The translations under genes were made by a program, and so were the position numbers. Under the pieces are notes generated by a model. It did no database searches and was not told the origin of the DNA. It saw nothing but the letters and a program-made list of their open reading frames with translations. A DNA stretch of 28,483 nucleotides from a virus: the IMG/VR virus record IMGVR_UViG_3300009506_000150, positions 1-28,483 of that record. The stretch is one strand, 5' to 3'. The first letter of the stretch is position 1. Every line of letters starts with the position of its first letter. Positions 4,087-26,998 of this stretch are shown piece after piece.

Positions 4087-5784
4087 ATGGCTGCGATTAT
4101 TGGAAATAACTTCCGTTTAAACCAAAACGTAATTTGTGAGAGTAGGCTACTTTTTCCAGATAGCTTTGCACTAGTCGGGGTTGGAGCTGGGTTGTTTAAA
4201 TTGCACCCATTTACTACTGAATGGACAGTGGCCGGTGATGCAGCGGCACGAACCATTACTTTACCACTTGTAAGTGGATATTCTTATAATTGCGTAGTTG
4301 ACTGGGGTGATGGGACTACCCCAAGTCTAGTAACTGCTTATAACGATGTGAATCGTATCCACACCTATTCGAGCGATGGTACCTATAACGTCGGAATCTT
4401 TGGTATATGCCAGGGATGGTCATTTAATAATGGCGGTGACAAGTTAAAAATAACAGATATTATAAGTTGGGGATCAAAACCCACAGTCGGAGGGTTCAAA
4501 TATCTTGGGGGTGGGTTTTACGGTTGTTCTAACCTAAAAAGTCTTGGGCCTTCAAACAGTATAATTCCAGATGATGGTCTACTTGATATTAGTAGCTGTT
4601 TTCGGAGTAGCAGTGGTGCTACTAGTCAAATACCGCCAAATTTACTAAAACAACTAACAAACGCGACAAACCTAAGTCATTTGCTCCGCAGCTGTTCCGG
4701 ACTAACAGGATCGATTCCAACAGACTTTCTCCGCTACGTCACCAGCGCTACAGACATAAGCCGTTTGATGTATAACTGTTACGGACTTACAGGCTCTATC
4801 CCAACAGATCTCTTACGCTACGTCACCAGCGCAACAGACATAAGCTATTTGTTTAACGGCTGTTCAGGACTTACAGGCTCTATCCCAACAGACTTTCTGC
4901 GCTACGTGACAAACGTTACAAACATAAGCTCTTTGTTACGCAACTGTTCCGGGCTCACAGGTTCGATTCCAACAGATTTCCTGCGCTACGTAACAAGCGT
5001 CACAGACATAAGCTATTTGATATATGGCTGTTCCGGGCTCACAGGCTCTATCCCAACAGATCTCTTACGCTACGTGACAAGCGTTACAAACATAAGTCAT
5101 TTGTTGGATAGTTGTTCTGGGCTCACAGGATCAATTCCAACAGACTTTCTCCGCTACGTCACAAGCTCCACAAACCTAAGCAATTTGCTACGCGACTGTA
5201 CAGGACTTACAGGTTCTATCCCATCAGATCTCTTACGCTACGTGACTAGCGCCACAGACATAAGCAATTTGCTACGCAGCTGTTCCGGACTCACAGGCTC
5301 TATCCCATCAGATCTCTTACGCTACGTGACTAGCGCCACAAATTTAAGTTCTTTGTTGTATAACTGTTCAGGACTTACAGGTTCGATTCCAACAGATTTC
5401 CTGCGCTACGTAACAAGCGTCACAGACATAAGCTATTTGATATATGGCTGTTCCGGGCTCACGGGCTACGATGCCGATCTGTGCCGAGAAAATGTGTTGT
5501 GTACAAATTTCAGCTACATGATGGGTGGTTGTACCACAATGCAACAACGGTCCGATACATTTTATAGACCAGGAGAAGAAACAACGCGTTTTCTAAATAA
5601 AAGCGTCGATTTTACATCGTGCTTTGAACGCGCATCGTTTTCAGGTACGCAAGGTACAGCCCCCGATTTATGGAATTGTAGCTTTGGAACCGGGACGCCA
5701 ACAACAACTGGGTGTTGGGCAGGAGCGGGAAATAGTGCGGCAAGTCTAACAAATTACGCGAGTATACCCGCGGGGTGGAAATAA
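4087..5784 (+). CDS. BspA/DUF285-type repeat fibre or adhesin with PKD-like domain
   Basis: This 565-residue protein has an N-terminal region (1-55), then a PKD-like beta domain (about 60-112) marked by VVDWGDGTTPS and HTYSSDGTYNVGIFG. A BspA/DUF285-type leucine-rich array follows. It begins with degenerate units (FYGCSNLKSLG), then has nine exact 28-residue repeats at residues 205-456 of the form GLTGSIPTDFLRYVTSxTDIS-x-LxxxCS. Each repeat keeps one cysteine. The C-terminal ~100 residues are a Cys- and Gly-rich cap (MMGGCTTMQQ ... WAGAGNSAAS). Such proteins mediate surface adhesion in bacteria and occur in phage fibres. Here, placed between capsid and connector genes, it is most likely a head fibre that binds cells, mucus or particles. 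The location on the head is inferred from gene order only. Confidence 0.75.
   Translation: MAAIIGNNFRLNQNVICESRLLFPDSFALVGVGAGLFKLHPFTTEWTVAGDAAARTITLPLVSGYSYNCVVDWGDGTTPSLVTAYNDVNRIHTYSSDGTYNVGIFGICQGWSFNNGGDKLKITDIISWGSKPTVGGFKYLGGGFYGCSNLKSLGPSNSIIPDDGLLDISSCFRSSSGATSQIPPNLLKQLTNATNLSHLLRSCSGLTGSIPTDFLRYVTSATDISRLMYNCYGLTGSIPTDLLRYVTSATDISYLFNGCSGLTGSIPTDFLRYVTNVTNISSLLRNCSGLTGSIPTDFLRYVTSVTDISYLIYGCSGLTGSIPTDLLRYVTSVTNISHLLDSCSGLTGSIPTDFLRYVTSSTNLSNLLRDCTGLTGSIPSDLLRYVTSATDISNLLRSCSGLTGSIPSDLLRYVTSATNLSSLLYNCSGLTGSIPTDFLRYVTSVTDISYLIYGCSGLTGYDADLCRENVLCTNFSYMMGGCTTMQQRSDTFYRPGEETTRFLNKSVDFTSCFERASFSGTQGTAPDLWNCSFGTGTPTTTGCWAGAGNSAASLTNYASIPAGWK
4699..5454 (+). repeat. Nine tandem 84-bp in-frame repeats
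   Basis: The stretch is exactly 9 x 84 bp, coding nine 28-residue units. Units 4 and 9 are near copies: 4957-5042 and 5377-5462 are identical over 86 nt at a distance of 420 bp (5 units). Other units differ mainly at codons 16-18 and 22-28, the exposed face. No indels separate the units. This suggests recent unequal crossing-over or gene conversion and potential for length variation. Confidence 0.95.
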
Positions 5785-12753: not shown

Positions 12754-13215
12754 ATGGGCGTACTAGGCACACCCCGAACATACCATAAGAGGTTCAAGTT
12801 TGTCGTCGAAATCGACGATATAGCAAGCGCCGGATTTCAAACATGCTCGGAGCTTTCCGCCGAAGTGGCGAAGGTCGAGTATTGGGAAGGCGGAGCGTTG
12901 ACCCCCGATAAAAGTCCGGGACGCGTCACGTTTGCGGACATCACTCTCGAGCGCGGAGCGACAAACGATCGCGATATGTGGGATTGGTTCAAGCAAGTAG
13001 TAGACGCGGCCGCCAACTCGGGGGTTGTCGATCCTTCCTACAAGCGCAATCTCGACATTGTGCAGCAAGAGCGCGACGGCTCAACATTACGGCGATGGCG
13101 CGTGTCAAATGCGTTTCCGGTCAAGTTTGTCGGCGGTGCGTGGGACAACAACACCGACGAAACAAATATCGAATCGGTAACGCTTACATTTGACTCTTTC
13201 GATCTTGAGCAATAA
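12754..13215 (+). CDS. Tail tube protein (T4 gp19 family)
   Basis: This 153-residue protein has the gp19/tube fold pattern: a start with [15 protein letters not shown], then '[22 protein letters not shown]', a [20 protein letters not shown] motif, [15 protein letters not shown] and a last [14 protein letters not shown]. These match the hallmark 'F-V-E-I-x...F-x-x-x-S-L', 'L-x-R-G...W' and 'L-T-F-E' elements of the T4 gp19 and Pvc1-type tube family. It forms the inner tube enclosed by the sheath. GGAGG lies 9 nt before the ATG. The 43 nt after its stop hold a small hairpin (13232-13246). Confidence 0.93.
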
Positions 13216-13246: not shown

Positions 13247-13258
13247 GGAGGGAAGACC

Positions 13259-14020
13259 ATGGCAGAAAAATCGATAGTGTGTCCGTCGGGATTCGGCGGA
13301 CGCGTGCGCAGTTTAAAAGGTAGCGAGCTAAATTTGCTCGGTGACAAGAAGGCGATTCGCTCCGGCGATTTGTTCGACAACTTGCTTCGCGCGTGTTGGC
13401 TTGGCACCGACGATCCCGGCCCGTACAACTTCGACGTAGGCGGTGCGGTAAATTGGGGAAAGGTACTTGTCGCTGACAGGTTTTTTATTCTTCTCCAAAT
13501 CCGCGACACGACATACCCCGAAGACCCCTACAGTTTTCGCGCTTCGTGCGGCGACTCGAATTGCGGTGCATCGTTTACGTGGGATATCAACCTGAATGAT
13601 TTAACCGTGAAAGCCATTCCCGAGGAAAGCCTCGAAAAATTGCGCAGCGGTACGCCCCTCGAAACAATCGTATTTGATAAGAAAATTCAGTTTCGGCTCA
13701 CTACCGGCGAAGACGAGAAGAAGGGCGCGAAGTTTCTCAAAGGAATGCAGCAACGTATTCTTGACGTTCTAAACATGCGCGTTATTTCTGTGGAAGGTGT
13801 CGAGTCGCAAGATAAACGAAAGTGGCTCGCGGATCTCGACCTCAATTTTCACAGGGATATGATCGCCGCGTTCGACGAACAGGACGGCGGCGTAGAAACC
13901 GAAATCGAAATCGAATGTCCTGAATGCGGAAATGTGTTCCCGATCGACCTCCCTTTCGGGCGGGAGTTCTTCTTGCCAAAGCGTCGATCGAAGGACTCCT
14001 CGAGTACGGCGCAGAAATAG
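13259..14020 (+). CDS. Tail/baseplate assembly chaperone with zinc-ribbon (T4 gp26-type)
   Basis: This 253-residue protein begins MAEKSIVCPSGFGGRVRSLKGSEL. Residues ~60-105 hold a helix-rich part and a CGDSNCGASF segment, and a second pair, CPECG, lies at residues ~220-224. The four cysteines look like a zinc ribbon, as in the T4 baseplate chaperone (gp26-like) family. Position between the tube and tape measure genes is where tail assembly chaperones usually lie. A GGAGGG Shine-Dalgarno (13247-13252) precedes it. Near its 3' end is a -1 frameshift site (13951) that would let a fraction of ribosomes continue into the 14253-ending frame, giving a 331-residue product. The zero-frame end is unstructured and Ser/Lys-rich (KRRSKDSSSTAQK). 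Confidence 0.75.
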   Translation: MAEKSIVCPSGFGGRVRSLKGSELNLLGDKKAIRSGDLFDNLLRACWLGTDDPGPYNFDVGGAVNWGKVLVADRFFILLQIRDTTYPEDPYSFRASCGDSNCGASFTWDINLNDLTVKAIPEESLEKLRSGTPLETIVFDKKIQFRLTTGEDEKKGAKFLKGMQQRILDVLNMRVISVEGVESQDKRKWLADLDLNFHRDMIAAFDEQDGGVETEIEIECPECGNVFPIDLPFGREFFLPKRRSKDSSSTAQK

Positions 14021-14253
14021 AAGAAGACCCCTACGGTATTCTTGGCGGTTTGTTTCAGTACATTGACGCAGAAACCGCACGTCAGATAATTTTCGATCTC
14101 ACGTATCAGCAACACGGCGGGTCCGGGTTGAACATAACCTACAACGACGCGCAACGTATGGATTTAGCTGAAATAGCGTGGTACTCTGATACTTTAGGGT
14201 CTCGTAGACGACAGGAGGCTGCAGCTATCGCACGTGCATCCAAAGTGCGCTAA
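13924..14253 (+). CDS. Downstream half of the chaperone, probably made by -1 frameshift
   Basis: The frame opens just after a TGA at 13921 and has an ATG at 13924, but no Shine-Dalgarno. Its first ~12 codons (MRKCVPDRPPF) look like accidental coding. From the slip site at 13957 the sequence is sensible and contains LLEYGAEIEEDPYG, GGLFQYIDAETARQIIFDLT and AQRMDLAEIAWYSDTL, followed by a helical RRQEAAAIARASK. The final motif resembles the C-terminal helix of gp26-like and gpT-like tail assembly chaperones. So the real product is most likely the 331-residue fusion of residues 1-233 of the 13259 gene with 98 residues from this frame. The HNH gene on the other strand ends at its last codon. Confidence 0.7.
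   Translation: MRKCVPDRPPFRAGVLLAKASIEGLLEYGAEIEEDPYGILGGLFQYIDAETARQIIFDLTYQQHGGSGLNITYNDAQRMDLAEIAWYSDTLGSRRRQEAAAIARASKVR
13951..13999 (+). promoter_or_regulatory. Programmed -1 frameshift site: CCCTTTC plus stem-loop
   Basis: In the chaperone frame the codons read C CCT TTC at 13951-13957, an exact X_XXY_YYZ heptamer. After a 5-nt spacer, GGAGTTCTTC (13963-13972) pairs with GAAGGACTCC (13990-13999) in a 10-bp stem with one U-G pair and a 17-nt loop. Slipping -1 leads into the frame that ends at 14253. Slip site, spacing and stem all match known -1 frameshift signals, and the position matches the gpG/gpGT locus of other phages. Confidence 0.82.
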
Positions 14254-14945
14254 GTCAGTTTGCGCGATTTGCCTTCAATCCAGTTGTAAATAGAACGTGC
14301 ATGCACTCCGAACTCTTTAGCTAACTTGTACGGTGACTCGCCATTTTTGCAACGTTGGACAATATTACGTGCTGTATCGTCTGAAATTCTTTTTGTAACA
14401 TCCGCTTGAGTCTGCGAGAGCTTTCGTTCTGTTCGAATAGGTCCACCAACACGTTTCCAAGTTTTTCCACGAACTATAAGCATAATTGCGGTATGTGAAA
14501 GACCATACTTTTTTGCAAGATTTTTCATAGCAATACCATCGGCGTGTTTTTCGCGAATAGAAATCACATCGCTTTCGTGAATTTTGTTGCCGGTTGGCGA
14601 ACGATTAAGGACCGCGTAAGCGTGTAAAATATTGTCTCTGTTAGAAACAGCTTCAAGATTTGAAACTGCATTGTGAAGCTTATTACCATCTTTGTGATTA
14701 ATCACAAAACCTTGCGGAATTGGTCCGACAAATGCGGTAAAAACTGCGCGGTGCACACGTATCAATTTTGGTTTGCCATGCACAGAAACGCCTACATTGG
14801 CATAACCGTCACGATCGATGTATCCTTTAAGCATCGTGCCGGCCTTCGCTCTTGTTTTTGATACTTCGCGACGAACTTTTCCGCTATCCGAAATTGCGTA
14901 TAAACCTTCGCAATCAACTACAGGTTTCCAGTTTTCATGTGGCAT
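14250..14945 (-). CDS. Free-standing HNH homing endonuclease (NUMOD4 + HNH, two helix-turn-helix motifs)
   Basis: This 231-residue protein is coded on the opposite strand, in the gap between the chaperone and tape measure genes. Residues 4-50 (ENWKPVVDCEGLYAISDSGK) resemble a NUMOD4 DNA-binding module. Residues 60-110 hold the HNH site: VHRAV (H65), NHKDGN (N83-N88) and SNLEAV. Two helix-turn-helix segments follow (about 124-160, KNLAKKYGLSHTAIMLIV, and 193-226, YKLAKEFGVHARSIYNWI). The start at 14945 is chosen because a -35/-10 pair (TTGCAC, 17 nt, TATGCT) ends 6 nt before this ATG. The stop overlaps that of the chaperone frame. It is a selfish element expected to cut sites lacking it; upstream in-frame Met codons overlap the tape measure and are unlikely. 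Confidence 0.88.
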   Translation of the reverse strand: MPHENWKPVVDCEGLYAISDSGKVRREVSKTRAKAGTMLKGYIDRDGYANVGVSVHGKPKLIRVHRAVFTAFVGPIPQGFVINHKDGNKLHNAVSNLEAVSNRDNILHAYAVLNRSPTGNKIHESDVISIREKHADGIAMKNLAKKYGLSHTAIMLIVRGKTWKRVGGPIRTERKLSQTQADVTKRISDDTARNIVQRCKNGESPYKLAKEFGVHARSIYNWIEGKSRKLT

Positions 14946-14951
14946 AATTAG

Positions 14952-14980
14952 AGCATAGTACCGACAACAATAATGTGCAA
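14952..14980 (-). promoter_or_regulatory. Promoter for the leaderless HNH gene at 14945
   Basis: On the minus strand TTGCAC (14980-14975), 17 nt, TATGCT (14957-14952), then 6 nt to the ATG at 14945. The start of transcription would fall at or just before the ATG. No Shine-Dalgarno is present. The hexamer scores are modest (3/6 and 4/6). Confidence 0.5.
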
Positions 14981-14988
14981 GCAAACAG

Positions 14989-17391
14989 ATGGCACTCAAT
15001 AGATTAGGCTTGGGGTTCGACTTTATCGGGCGGGATTTTGTTTCGCACACGATGGGTGGAATTCGTCGGCAATTTGGCTTGATGGAAGGGTCAAGCAAAA
15101 AGCTCGCGAAAACAGTCGGCGCCGGGTTTGTAATGCTCACGACTGGCGCGCTAACAACCGCTGTGGCGCTCGGTGCGCTCGGCGGGGCGATAAGCTTAGC
15201 CAATCAAGCGGGACAGTTTGAGCAACAGATGGCGGCCGTAGGCGCTATTACGCGCGCGACTGCCGACGATATGAATATGCTCGAGACCGCTGCGATCAAT
15301 GCCGGTATCGCTACGCAATTCTCTCCACAAGAAGCGGCCGAAGGTTTACGCAATTTAGGTCAAATGGGTTTCAATGCCGCGGAATCAACAACCGCATTGG
15401 TACCGGCTTTAGATCTTGCCGCGGGCGGTCAAATTTCGGTCGCGTCGGCGGCGCAAACGGCGGCGTCAGCCTTACGGGTGTTCAGCTTAGAAACGGACGA
15501 AGCGGCTATAACGACCGACAAACTGCTACGAATTTCGAATGTGACGGCATTGAAGGCGGCCGACCTCGAGCTCGCAATAGGTAATTTGGGTCGAGGTGTC
15601 GGACTCACAAAGCAATCAATCGACGAAATGCTACCGTCTCTCGGTCTCGTGCGAAACACAGGTGTCGAAGCGTCTACGGCTGCAACGTCTGTTTCTTCTG
15701 CGTTGCTGTTCATGGCCAAGAATTCGGATAAGTTCAAGCGAGATATCGGTGTCGATATGACGGACGCGGCCGGTAACTTTCGCCCGTTTATGGATATCGT
15801 GCTTGACGCGAGCGCGGCATTGGAAGACAAGTACACCAATAGCGCAAAGCGTGCCGCAAAAGCTCAAGAGCTGTTTGGGCGATTTGGCGTAAGCGCGTAT
15901 ACGGCAATCAGCGGCCAACTCACGAAAGGAATTAAGACAGCGACGGGCGAAACGCTAAGGGGTGCCGAAGCAGTAAACTATCTTCGCGAGCAAATGAAAA
16001 AAGCCGCGGGGGCTGCAGCGGAGTTCCGCGAAAAGTTACTCGACACGTTCGAGGGACAGAAAACGTTATTGCGCGGCACACTCGAAACAATGGCGGTAGT
16101 GTTTGGTAAACCGTTCGCGGCCGTGTTTAAGCCGTTTGTGAGCGCGTTGACGAATAGCTTAAACGCTGTGATTCGCTTTTTTAACGCGTTACCGAAACCT
16201 GTAAAAAACGCTATAGCCGGGATCATAGTTGGCGTATTGGTATTGACGGCCGCGTTAGGTGCGATGCTTACTGTTGCCGGCGCAATTACAATTCTTCTTC
16301 CGTTCATGGCGACGTTTATCATGGTCATGAAAGCAATGGCGATCGCGGTTGGCGCTGTGGTTCTTGTCGTTGCCGCGTTAGCGGCCGGTTTTGCGCTTGC
16401 GGTGTGGTTGGTCCGTAATAATATCGGCGGTCTCGGGGACGCGTTTAATCGCGCTGTGGAAATGATTAAACTGTTTTGGAACGGCTTGATCGATCTTGTT
16501 ACAAAAGGCGGTTTTTCCGAAGAAATCAGCAAAGAAATGGGGAAAGCAGAGAATCAAGGTGTGCGTAAATTTGCGATTCGTTTCTTTCAAATTTTCTACC
16601 GCATAAAGCGCTTTTTTGAAGGGATTGCGCAAGGCTTTCGCCAAACAATGGAAGAGTTCGCACCTGTTTTTGGGGCGTTGGGCGAAGCGTTTAAACGTCT
16701 CGGGGAAGCGGTCGGCGGTCTCGGTGGGGATATGCTCGGATTTGCCGGAACGCCGTCAGACAGGTTCAACGAAGCGGGGGCGGGTATTGGTTTTGTTCTT
16801 GCGTCGCTGATATCCGGTGTGGCGTGGTTGGTAACCGGTTTTGTTGAACTGTTTACGTGGCTTATAAGAGTTGGCTCGTGGCTCGGTGACACATTCGCGA
16901 AATACATGATTACTGCGTCCGAAGCAACAACAGCATTTGTCGATACACTTATTGAAGTGTGGAATTGGCTAAAAAAAATTAGCGAAAGCGCGGTCGGTAA
17001 AGTGATGTCGTTCTTTACCGGCGAAGAGGCTCCCCCACCTCGACCGGTTGGCGCAGGCGCGCAGCAACCCAACGCTGAACAACAAGAAGCCGATTCGAAA
17101 CGCCCGGTAGCTCTACCGATCAAAAAGCTAGCGCCCGCGGGAGCACCTCTTAACTTGCAAACCGCTCTTGCGAGCATGTCGGCGGAAGAAGTCGCTAGCA
17201 AACTATCCGTATTCAAAGCCGACACCGCAATAGGAAAACAAGATATCGCACAACTTATAGCCGAAATCAAAAATAGGCCTACAGTAGTGTCGCTCAACAT
17301 CGACGGTACGCGCGTGGGCGAAGCTGTCGCGTCAGCGAATCGAAGCAAGCTCGCGCGACAAGGCGTTCCGGTTGGCGAGGAGGCGGGTTAA
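14989..17391 (+). CDS. Tail tape measure protein (TP901/PhageMin type)
   Basis: This 800-residue protein sets tail length. An N-terminal basic segment (SKKLAKTVGAG) leads into the conserved TP901-type region (about residues 75-290) with FEQQMAAVGAITRATADDM, FSPQEAAEGLRNLGQMGF and AQELFGRFGVSAYTAI. A long hydrophobic block lies near 405-475 (IAGIIVGVLVLTAALGAML and GAVVLVVAALAAGFALAVWL). Further amphipathic helices and a Pro-rich segment near 680-720 follow. Other phages show about 1.5 angstroms per residue, so a tail near 120 nm is expected. The ATG at 14989 has no good Shine-Dalgarno, perhaps because an HNH gene has replaced the native upstream junction. Its stop overlaps the next start (TAATG). 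Confidence 0.93.
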   Translation: MALNRLGLGFDFIGRDFVSHTMGGIRRQFGLMEGSSKKLAKTVGAGFVMLTTGALTTAVALGALGGAISLANQAGQFEQQMAAVGAITRATADDMNMLETAAINAGIATQFSPQEAAEGLRNLGQMGFNAAESTTALVPALDLAAGGQISVASAAQTAASALRVFSLETDEAAITTDKLLRISNVTALKAADLELAIGNLGRGVGLTKQSIDEMLPSLGLVRNTGVEASTAATSVSSALLFMAKNSDKFKRDIGVDMTDAAGNFRPFMDIVLDASAALEDKYTNSAKRAAKAQELFGRFGVSAYTAISGQLTKGIKTATGETLRGAEAVNYLREQMKKAAGAAAEFREKLLDTFEGQKTLLRGTLETMAVVFGKPFAAVFKPFVSALTNSLNAVIRFFNALPKPVKNAIAGIIVGVLVLTAALGAMLTVAGAITILLPFMATFIMVMKAMAIAVGAVVLVVAALAAGFALAVWLVRNNIGGLGDAFNRAVEMIKLFWNGLIDLVTKGGFSEEISKEMGKAENQGVRKFAIRFFQIFYRIKRFFEGIAQGFRQTMEEFAPVFGALGEAFKRLGEAVGGLGGDMLGFAGTPSDRFNEAGAGIGFVLASLISGVAWLVTGFVELFTWLIRVGSWLGDTFAKYMITASEATTAFVDTLIEVWNWLKKISESAVGKVMSFFTGEEAPPPRPVGAGAQQPNAEQQEADSKRPVALPIKKLAPAGAPLNLQTALASMSAEEVASKLSVFKADTAIGKQDIAQLIAEIKNRPTVVSLNIDGTRVGEAVASANRSKLARQGVPVGEEAG

Positions 17392-21934: not shown

Positions 21935-22624
21935 ATGGCTCGTATTTCAGCCAATGAAAACTTTAGTGTACCGTTAGGTGTCCCACTGAAATATTTTGAT
22001 CTGAAAAAGAGCGGACGACCAGCGAAGCATTTTTGCAATACTTGGGTGTTTGACAACCCATTATCGATAGACGCTACTTATTGGTTAGGCTTTATCTATG
22101 CAGACGGATCGGTAAGTTGGGTGGATTGTGCGGGGCGAAGTCGGTTTGAACTTCAAATTAACGTGCAATTGAGAGATTTGGGGCATTTGTGGAAATTGCG
22201 CTGTTTATTAGGTGGTGACGTGCGTATTACCACTTCGTGCGCGCGTTTTGGTATTGGTTCGAAACAGCTTTGCCACCGTCTTTCTCAACTCGGTATAATG
22301 CCTCAAAAATCACAATATCCCCTAGAACCGCCGCAACTTCACGGAGACGCTAAAATAGCCTTTCTGCGTGGATTATTCGATGGGGATGGTTGTTTGCATG
22401 TTACAAAACGTGGCTACTTGCAAGCAGCATTTTGCGGACATCCAGCTATTATTAAATGGTTTGCGCGCGAAGTCGGCATTGCTGGAAGTGAACGCTTTCG
22501 GGATAACACGCTATACTATCAATGGACGAGTGGTTGCGCAGCTAAACAATTAGTGCGTTATCTGTATGGTACTTCTGGCCCGGCGCTAAAGCGCAAAGCC
22601 GAAATTGCAAAAAGGTTTATGTAA
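21935..22624 (+). CDS. Free-standing LAGLIDADG homing endonuclease
   Basis: This 229-residue protein carries the two catalytic LAGLIDADG motifs of a monomeric enzyme: YWLGFIYADGSV (residues 49-60, acidic D57) and AFLRGLFDGDGCL (142-154, acidic D149/D151 region). They are spaced by ~90 residues as in known single-chain enzymes, with beta elements between (FELQINVQLRDLGHL). It should cut a specific 18-22 bp target in a related phage. LAGLIDADG genes are less common in phage genomes than HNH or GIY-YIG. It has no Shine-Dalgarno but a -10 (TAAAAT) 6 nt before the ATG. Its stop overlaps the gpJ start (TAATG), so gpJ can be translated after it. There is no sign of intron splicing because both neighbours are whole. 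Confidence 0.9.
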   Translation: MARISANENFSVPLGVPLKYFDLKKSGRPAKHFCNTWVFDNPLSIDATYWLGFIYADGSVSWVDCAGRSRFELQINVQLRDLGHLWKLRCLLGGDVRITTSCARFGIGSKQLCHRLSQLGIMPQKSQYPLEPPQLHGDAKIAFLRGLFDGDGCLHVTKRGYLQAAFCGHPAIIKWFAREVGIAGSERFRDNTLYYQWTSGCAAKQLVRYLYGTSGPALKRKAEIAKRFM

Positions 22625-24984: not shown

Positions 24985-25533
24985 TCAAATATTTTTGTAA
25001 ATTTGTTGGCGCACAATTTTGCTGACACTATTAGGATTAATGTTAAATTCGCGCGCAAGACTTATTTGGCTTTCACCGCGCTTCACGCGATCGCGCAATT
25101 CATGTACTTGCGCAGCGCTCAATTTTCTCATAGTCGACGAGCGCGGTTGCCACAAACCATTTTCAATCGCATGCGCATGGTTTTCGGCATTGGTGCACAG
25201 CTCGAGATTACACAAACAATTATTACGCTTGTTACCATCTTTGTGATTAATTGTAAGTCCATTTGCAATATTACCGTGCGCAACAAACCAAATTACTCTA
25301 TGCGCGAGGCAACGAAACGAACCTTCCGTGTAGCTGAACGATATTCGCAAGTATTGACTTTTCGGGCGTGCCGGTGGATGCACAATTTCGTAAGTGCATT
25401 CTCGCCACTGTGCTTTAGCTCCTTTTCGCCTAGTAAAAATCTTGCCTTCTTCCGGGAATACTTTCAGGCGTTGTTCAAAAATTGCTTTTCTCACATCACT
25501 AAAACTAGCGTTATTTTTATTCACACTGCACAT
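24985..25533 (-). CDS. Free-standing HNH homing endonuclease (antisense)
   Basis: This 182-residue protein is coded on the minus strand between the 24114 and 25564 genes. Residues ~76-120 hold the HNH site: AHRVIWFVAHGN (H78), NHKDGN (N96-N101) and CNLELCTNAEN. Several cysteines (C75, C106, C108, C113) near the site could bind a structural zinc. The C-terminal ~45 residues (KLSAAQVHELRDRVKRG, then ISLAREFNINPNSVSKIV) form a helix-turn-helix. There is no Shine-Dalgarno; TATTAT lies 7 nt before the ATG at 25533. It resembles the 14250 HNH gene in the NHKDGN core and C-terminal HTH, but is shorter and lacks a clear NUMOD4 part. An open frame on the + strand here (24877-25539) is its shadow. Confidence 0.87.
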   Translation of the reverse strand: MCSVNKNNASFSDVRKAIFEQRLKVFPEEGKIFTRRKGAKAQWRECTYEIVHPPARPKSQYLRISFSYTEGSFRCLAHRVIWFVAHGNIANGLTINHKDGNKRNNCLCNLELCTNAENHAHAIENGLWQPRSSTMRKLSAAQVHELRDRVKRGESQISLAREFNINPNSVSKIVRQQIYKNI

Positions 25534-26295: not shown

Positions 26296-26324
26296 TTGGT
26301 AACTTACTGTACTTGTGCTAAAGT
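26296..26324 (+). promoter_or_regulatory. Promoter for the leaderless HNH-type gene at 26330
   Basis: TTGGTA (26296-26301), 17 nt, TAAAGT (26319-26324) with TGC directly upstream (extended -10), then 5 nt to the ATG at 26330. It starts right after the stop of the lectin-like gene, so it is not buried in coding sequence. This is the best of the five leaderless promoter candidates. Confidence 0.65.
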
Positions 26325-26329
26325 TTTTC

Positions 26330-26998
26330 ATGGAAAAGTTGAGATCAAAATTACGGAAAGAGGAATGGCGGGTGCCAGAAATTCGCACAAAACGCTGCGA
26401 AAGTATGCGCGAAGCCGCTAAACGTCGATACGAAGATCCGGAAGAGCGAAAAAAAGCTGTGCGACGAGCCAAGCAATATTACATCGATCACCCAAACTAC
26501 CGGGAAGAGCGAAAAGAAATTTACGCACAAATTGCAAAAACTTTGCAAGGAAGGAAAGGGCGAGCGCTAGGCTTGTCAAATTCACCAGAATATAAAGTTT
26601 GGATTTCTATGAATCAGCGTTGCCATAACTCAAAAACAACCGGTTTTGAAAATTATGGAGGAAGAGGTATTCAAGTTTGCGAAGATTGGAGAGGCCCGGG
26701 CGGATTCGTAAAATTTTACCAGTATGTAGGCGCACGCCCAACACCAAAGCACACTCTAGAGCGTATTAACAACGACGGTAACTACGAACCAGAAAATGTA
26801 AAATGGGCGACGCGATTTGAACAAATGAAAAATTGGCGGCGGAATAGAATGGTAACGTTAAACGGGCAAACCAAACATGTCGCTGCGTGGGCACGCGAGT
26901 TAAAAGTTAATGAGCAAGTTTTAAACTATCGCCTTAAAGTCGGTTGGCCTTTTGAACGTCTCAGCGAACAGCCGCGAAAAAAGAAAATAGGGCACTAA
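26330..26998 (+). CDS. HNH-type homing endonuclease with N-terminal NUMOD3-like and C-terminal HTH parts
   Basis: The ATG at 26330 gives 222 residues; the upstream GTG (26315) lies inside the promoter. Residues ~15-62 are basic and helical (REAAKRRYEDPEERKKAVRR), like NUMOD3 repeats. The core (86-171) has EYKVWISMNQRCHNSKTTG, then 'FENYGGRGIQVCEDW', then 'HTLERINNDGNYEPENVKWA' with H141, N148, N151 and N156. This is the pattern of the common phage HNH family with W and T after the Asn. The C-terminal ~40 residues (VTLNGQTKHVAAWARELKV) form a NUMOD1/HTH-like part. The stop overlaps the next ATG (TAATG), so the following gene can be coupled. Confidence 0.85.
   Translation: MEKLRSKLRKEEWRVPEIRTKRCESMREAAKRRYEDPEERKKAVRRAKQYYIDHPNYREERKEIYAQIAKTLQGRKGRALGLSNSPEYKVWISMNQRCHNSKTTGFENYGGRGIQVCEDWRGPGGFVKFYQYVGARPTPKHTLERINNDGNYEPENVKWATRFEQMKNWRRNRMVTLNGQTKHVAAWARELKVNEQVLNYRLKVGWPFERLSEQPRKKKIGH

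Follow-up and report, generated by a model that had tools for sequence, protein, structure and literature searches.

The chaperone gene in the tail module of this virus almost certainly gives rise to two proteins from one message, via a conserved one-base slip at CCCTTTC. The frameshift is real at the standard applied in comparative genomics, i.e., from the behavior of the site across related genes. For the window, by which we mean the whole stretch of 28,483 nucleotides that was analyzed, it is highly probable that the best explanation overall is a chaperone pair composed of a 253-residue short form and a 331-residue -1 fusion. In the proposed mechanism, most ribosomes would terminate at 14018-14020 and release the short chaperone, while a minority would slip back by one base at C_CCT_TTC. 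At this step, tRNA-Pro would leave CCU and pair with CCC, and tRNA-Phe would leave UUC and pair with UUU; the slipped ribosomes would then read 98 codons to TAA 14251, producing the 331-residue form with its extra helical C-terminal domain. The conserved site and the two-part architecture are established by sequence comparison, from which we infer that both proteins are made, and likewise their ratio. The short form would most likely coat the tape measure, and the domain present only in the long form would recruit tube subunits. This division of labor is proposed from the analogy with lambda gpG/gpGT and from the position of the gene, which follows the tube and precedes the tape measure.

Two Overlapping Frames in the Tail Module

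The zero-frame chaperone ORF (13259-14020, + strand, 253 aa), corresponding to the short form, is a member of PF12322, the T4 gp26 family (E 1.7e-10, 41.4 bits against a curated cut-off of 24.5), and also matches PHROG 150, "baseplate hub" (E 1.8e-13). A Shine-Dalgarno-like GGAGGG (13247-13252, + strand) can be read directly 6 nt 5' of its ATG at 13259, and its stop codon occupies 14018-14020. The -1 frame is closed on its 5' side by TGA at 13921-13923 and is then open from 13924 to TAA at 14251-14253. The C-terminal extension encoded there (13957-14253, + strand; 98 codons plus TAA) matches PHROG 20255 (E 2.1e-10) and lies in the -1 frame in homologues as well. A -1 slip would thus join 233 and 98 codons into a 331-residue fusion. 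An earlier sequence-only reading had given the same 98-codon frame, TGA closure, and product length, all of which were correct when reread from the sequence.

The two overlapping frames sit between genes for a gp19-type tail tube (12754-13215, + strand; PF06841 Phage_T4_gp19, E 9.5e-32) and a tape measure protein (14989-17391, + strand; PF10145, E 2.6e-24; PHROG 1533, 2.3e-50). The claimed place between tube and tape measure is therefore borne out by Pfam matches for both flanking genes and a PHROG match for the tape measure. Pfam matches also place a sheath gene upstream of the PF12322 ORF and baseplate genes 3' of the tape measure. Three homing-endonuclease-like genes are present in the tail module: a LAGLIDADG-like gene (21935-22624, + strand), an HNH gene (24985-25533, - strand), and a NUMOD4/HNH gene (14250-15203, - strand) that stands after the -1 frame and ahead of the tape measure. 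A further ORF (26315-26998) looks endonuclease-like by eye and has no Pfam match. Between the capsid and tail genes, a 565-aa ORF (4087-5784) is built of repeated GLTGSIPTDLLRYVTSATDIS-type leucine-rich units, with weak Pfam matches.

Conservation of the Slippery Site

In the frame of the chaperone ORF, positions 13949-13957 read CTC CCT TTC; the slippery heptamer claimed for 13951-13957 (+ strand), C_CCT_TTC, is an exact in-frame X_XXY_YYZ. Its description as an unusual choice did not hold, since C_CC.U_UU.C belongs to the H_HH.U_UU.Y class that shifts efficiently in E. coli (Sharma 2014, PMC4066793). Within the window, 35 in-frame heptamers were counted among the 6711 codons of the 21 ORFs tested (0.5% of codons), a rate that implies a chance of about 0.16 of finding one in the 32-codon overlap. 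The heptamer of the window is therefore suggestive rather than significant when taken by itself, and the comparative data carry the case. The lambda-like GGGAAAG also occurs in frame in the chaperone gene, at 13456-13462, outside the frame overlap; this is probably a chance occurrence.

IMG/VR was scanned with the N-part and the C-part separately, yielding about 76 loci, of which about 55 are distinct; the comparison of heptamers spans about 30 clusters below 60% identity, so that the conservation cannot be put down to near-identical loci sharing an ancestor. Every homologue of the clade that has both parts carries its C-part in the -1 frame and has CCCTTTN, TTTTTTN, or GGGAAAA in the overlap. 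Both frames kept without a heptamer, the observation named in advance as telling against a frameshift, was found in none of these homologues. The QHGGSG motif of the C-part, whose codons in the window are 14110-14127 (+ strand), is invariant in 49 aligned sequences. At the aligned site the heptamer is mostly CCCTTTC, in others CCCTTTT, CCCTTTG, or CCCTTTA, and in the rest TTTTTTC, TTTTTTT, or GGGAAAA is found nearby.

Three signs point to selection at the nucleotide level. First, C|CCT|TTN is present in 46/46 distinct users of the site, i.e., proline is always encoded by CCT and the preceding codon always ends in C, whereas CCT makes up only 31 of 488 proline codons (6%) elsewhere in the ORFs of these users. 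Second, CCCTTT is kept even at seven loci whose final codon is TTG or TTA, encoding Leu instead of Phe. Third, where LPF is encoded by CTTCCC, ATCCCC, or similar, TTTTTTC, TTTTTTT, or GGGAAAA is present instead. An earlier per-locus estimate for the conservation of the site amounted to a product of 10^-31, a figure that ignores kinship. That a heptamer came to lie in the overlapping frames by chance, for which the in-window figure leaves some room, is contradicted by a site conserved or replaced over about 30 divergent clusters, and we consider it vanishingly improbable. It is also extremely unlikely that the frame changes by transcriptional slippage instead of on the ribosome. Slippage is conceivable at the seven-T runs found at the site in some distant relatives; in CCCTTTC, however, the longest homopolymer is three, and the conserved feature is the tandem-codon pattern X_XXY_YYZ.

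A locus found by its N-part alone (L039), with TTTTTTG, has no detected C-part. Another (L052:764-1712) had seemed deviant because a frame change upstream breaks its N-part, which is split near residue 124, probably by a sequencing or assembly error; its downstream frameshift site is intact, since CCCTTTC still encodes LPF and the -1 frame still carries the C-part. The CCCTTTC gene is also present in contigs of Myxococcus xanthus AM003, M. dinghuensis, M. qinghaiensis, Corallococcus praedator, and Citreicoccus inhibens, as well as in several MAGs. In two genomes, Citreicoccus inhibens M34 (L102/L104) and Myxococcus xanthus AM003 (L105/L107), the tail module is found on two different contigs, which suggests two prophages or tail-like elements in each.

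Possible Initiation Within the Second Frame

Alternatively, the C-terminal ORF could be a separate gene of 109 aa, translated from ATG 13924 by coupling or reinitiation. Such an ATG does exist in the -1 frame (13924-13926, + strand), and many homologues have GTG or ATG at offsets of -36 or -27 from the heptamer. They arise incidentally from the Cys codons of a CPEC motif in the other frame, however, and the ATG of the window is an unlikely start; no Shine-Dalgarno sequence was found for it. In agreement with the claim that the second frame lacks a good start of its own, 26/34 representatives have no start bearing a Shine-Dalgarno-like core, and at five loci (L009, L053, L063, L066, and L077) the C-domain is not preceded by any possible start. 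Since a separate gene would also leave the conservation of the heptamer unexplained, we consider this reading very unlikely and favor the -1 fusion.

Candidate Structure Downstream of the Slip Site

The 10-bp stem described by the sequence-only reading was found in the sequence. Its arms are GGAGTTCTTC (13963-13972, + strand) and GAAGGACTCC (13990-13999, + strand), which would pair with one U-G across a 17-nt loop, beginning 5 nt 3' of the heptamer. Shuffled sequences match its score with p ~0.01. The minimum-free-energy prediction does not contain the candidate stem, whose pairs have an ensemble probability of about 0, since GAAGAA near 14020 is a better partner for TTCTTC. A co-variation check of heptamer and stem in homologues had been suggested. 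The heptamer proved to be conserved or exchanged for another canonical one; the stem was traceable in the nearest relatives only (L002, L009, and L010), where all ten pairs are kept through three one-sided changes and no compensatory double changes were found. An analogous strong stem is present in L046 (folding z -5.2), and across 37 representatives, which are partly non-independent, the best stems anchored at the 5' end scored above those of shuffled sequences overall (Fisher p 1e-5). Folding z-scores were discarded as proof of a stimulatory stem, as their mean over 53 relatives is only -0.3. Some structure downstream of the slip site, a frequent but dispensable element of G/GT-type frameshifts, is thus likely, and the exact stem 13963-13972/13990-13999 is a plausible stimulator.

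Protein Family and Proposed Function

The N-part and C-part of the fusion were modeled as separate chains. The AlphaFold (AF2) model of the N-part has a pLDDT of 91, and its matches in BFVD include T4-like hub assembly proteins, with E 1.8e-14, and the gp26 of an Aeromonas phage, with 1.7e-6. A Foldseek search of the N-domain against the PDB returned no match, which suggests that the fold has yet to be solved, and the C-domain model gave nothing below E 0.9. No match to families of the lambda gpG type was found in PHROGs or Pfam, where the only hits were PF12322/PHROG 150 and PHROG 20255. For the proposed label of a gpG-type tail chaperone, the place and the two-frame architecture fit, and homology to gpG, which such a label does not demand, was not found; we retain "tail chaperone" because of position and architecture, PF12322 being of the T4 gp26 type.

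A different view of function accepts the frameshift and takes its products to be structural parts of the baseplate hub instead of chaperones for tape measure and tube. PF12322 is annotated as baseplate hub in public records, and T4 gp26 has been assigned to the hub on genetic grounds (PMC3004832). However, the same review of the T4 tail lists gp26 as well as gp51 among the hub assembly chaperones, with gp51 absent from the final particle (PMC3004832), and the gene order tube, PF12322, tape measure fits the G-GT position. We therefore consider purely structural products doubtful and keep the chaperone pair as the working model; by analogy with T4, the short form may have a structural role in the hub.

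Probable Frameshifting in Related Phages

The C-part profile connects the window to PF12322 genes of named phages. For example, the "baseplate hub" genes of SP-15, LIS04, GXN1, Mel-JY01, PA5oct, and Atu_ph07 consist of a homologous N-part followed by the C-part in another frame, and in none of them are the two parts annotated as joined. In PA5oct and Atu_ph07, the C-part follows T_TTT_TTC and occupies the -1 frame, as in the window. In SP-15, LIS04, GXN1, BRock, Mel-JY01, and LR756508, unlike in the window, it lies in the +1 frame. Further scans added at least 95 loci. The C-part was in the +1 frame at 73 or more of these, representing at least 41 clusters, and TTT_TTT_TGG stands just before the stop in at least 35 of them. 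At no fewer than 20 further loci the C-part was in the -1 frame, with TTTTTTC in the overlap among the matches listed, except at L202 (AAATTTT only); at two loci among the matches listed, no C-part was detected. Members of the +1 clade include L119-L198 (e.g., L127 near 3214 and L142 near 3247), L209, and L210.

Judging from this pattern, the large TTT_TTT_TGG clade, in which that motif is strongly conserved, likely uses a +1 (or -2) programmed frameshift. Profiles of the C-part from the myxo-clade and the +1 clade match each other with E 9.7e-12, indicating that the same domain is carried in both frames. Frameshifting thus appears, from these sequences, to be family-wide in PF12322, with CCCTTTC -1 in myxobacteria-linked members, TTTTTTC -1 in jumbo phages and others, and TTT_TTT_TGG +1/-2. 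A search of the open-access literature found no earlier report of a frameshift in PF12322 genes, and a search for CCCTTTC frameshifts returned unrelated papers only. The long forms of PF12322 phages have been missed by annotation: in the named phages examined only the short form is annotated, mostly as baseplate hub or baseplate protein, and the second frame is filed as an unknown family, PHROG 20255.

Comparison With Phages Lambda and T4

In phage lambda, the tail assembly chaperones gpG and gpGT are reportedly produced by a frameshift of this type (Levin 1993; Xu 2004; Atkins 2016, PMC5009743). The window shares with that system the location between tube and tape measure, the combination of a short form with a -1 fusion, and a canonical X_XXY_YYZ heptamer. 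It differs in that its N-part belongs to PF12322 and has no detectable gpG match, and in that its heptamer is CCCTTTC where lambda has GGGAAAG.

T4 is listed as a phage without G-T frameshifting (Atkins 2016, PMC5009743). Its gp26 (208 aa) and gp51 (249 aa), encoded at L078:3803-4429 and 4480-5229, match PF12322 (8.8e-64 and 3.9e-52, respectively), as does the window protein, and the profiles of the two T4 proteins match each other (hhalign, 5.8e-17). Unlike in the window, they are two separate genes, with no frameshift. Past the PF12322 domain, gp51 has about 48 extra residues that begin where the frameshift domain does and align collinearly with the C-part. Against three C-domain profiles, hhalign scored this tail at 27.6, 22.2, and 24.2, compared with 25.0, 18.9, and 17.5 for the best of 100 column-shuffled decoys. 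This weak link required a C-domain profile widened with +1-class and jumbo sequences. The +1 profile alone scored 14.9 against a decoy at 21.5, the score for the myxo-clade profile was weak, hmmsearch scores of gp51 overlapped those of decoys, and when the fusion and gp51 were compared directly as profiles, no C-terminal match appeared. In the S-PM2 stretches read for a cyanophage gp51, no gene is annotated as gp26 or gp51.

The presence of two PF12322 paralogues in T4, one of them extended, indicates that this phage may have exchanged the slip for a gene duplication, and the sequences suggest that its short and long forms come from separate genes. We see an even chance that two-form expression is ancestral in PF12322, by -1 shifts at CCCTTTC or TTTTTTC and +1/-2 shifts at TTT_TTT_TGG, and that T4 and its close kin replaced it by duplication, with gp26 as the short, G-like form and gp51 as the long, GT-like form. 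If true, this would account for the absence of the frameshift from T4 as well as for the role of the "hub assembly catalyst" gp51.
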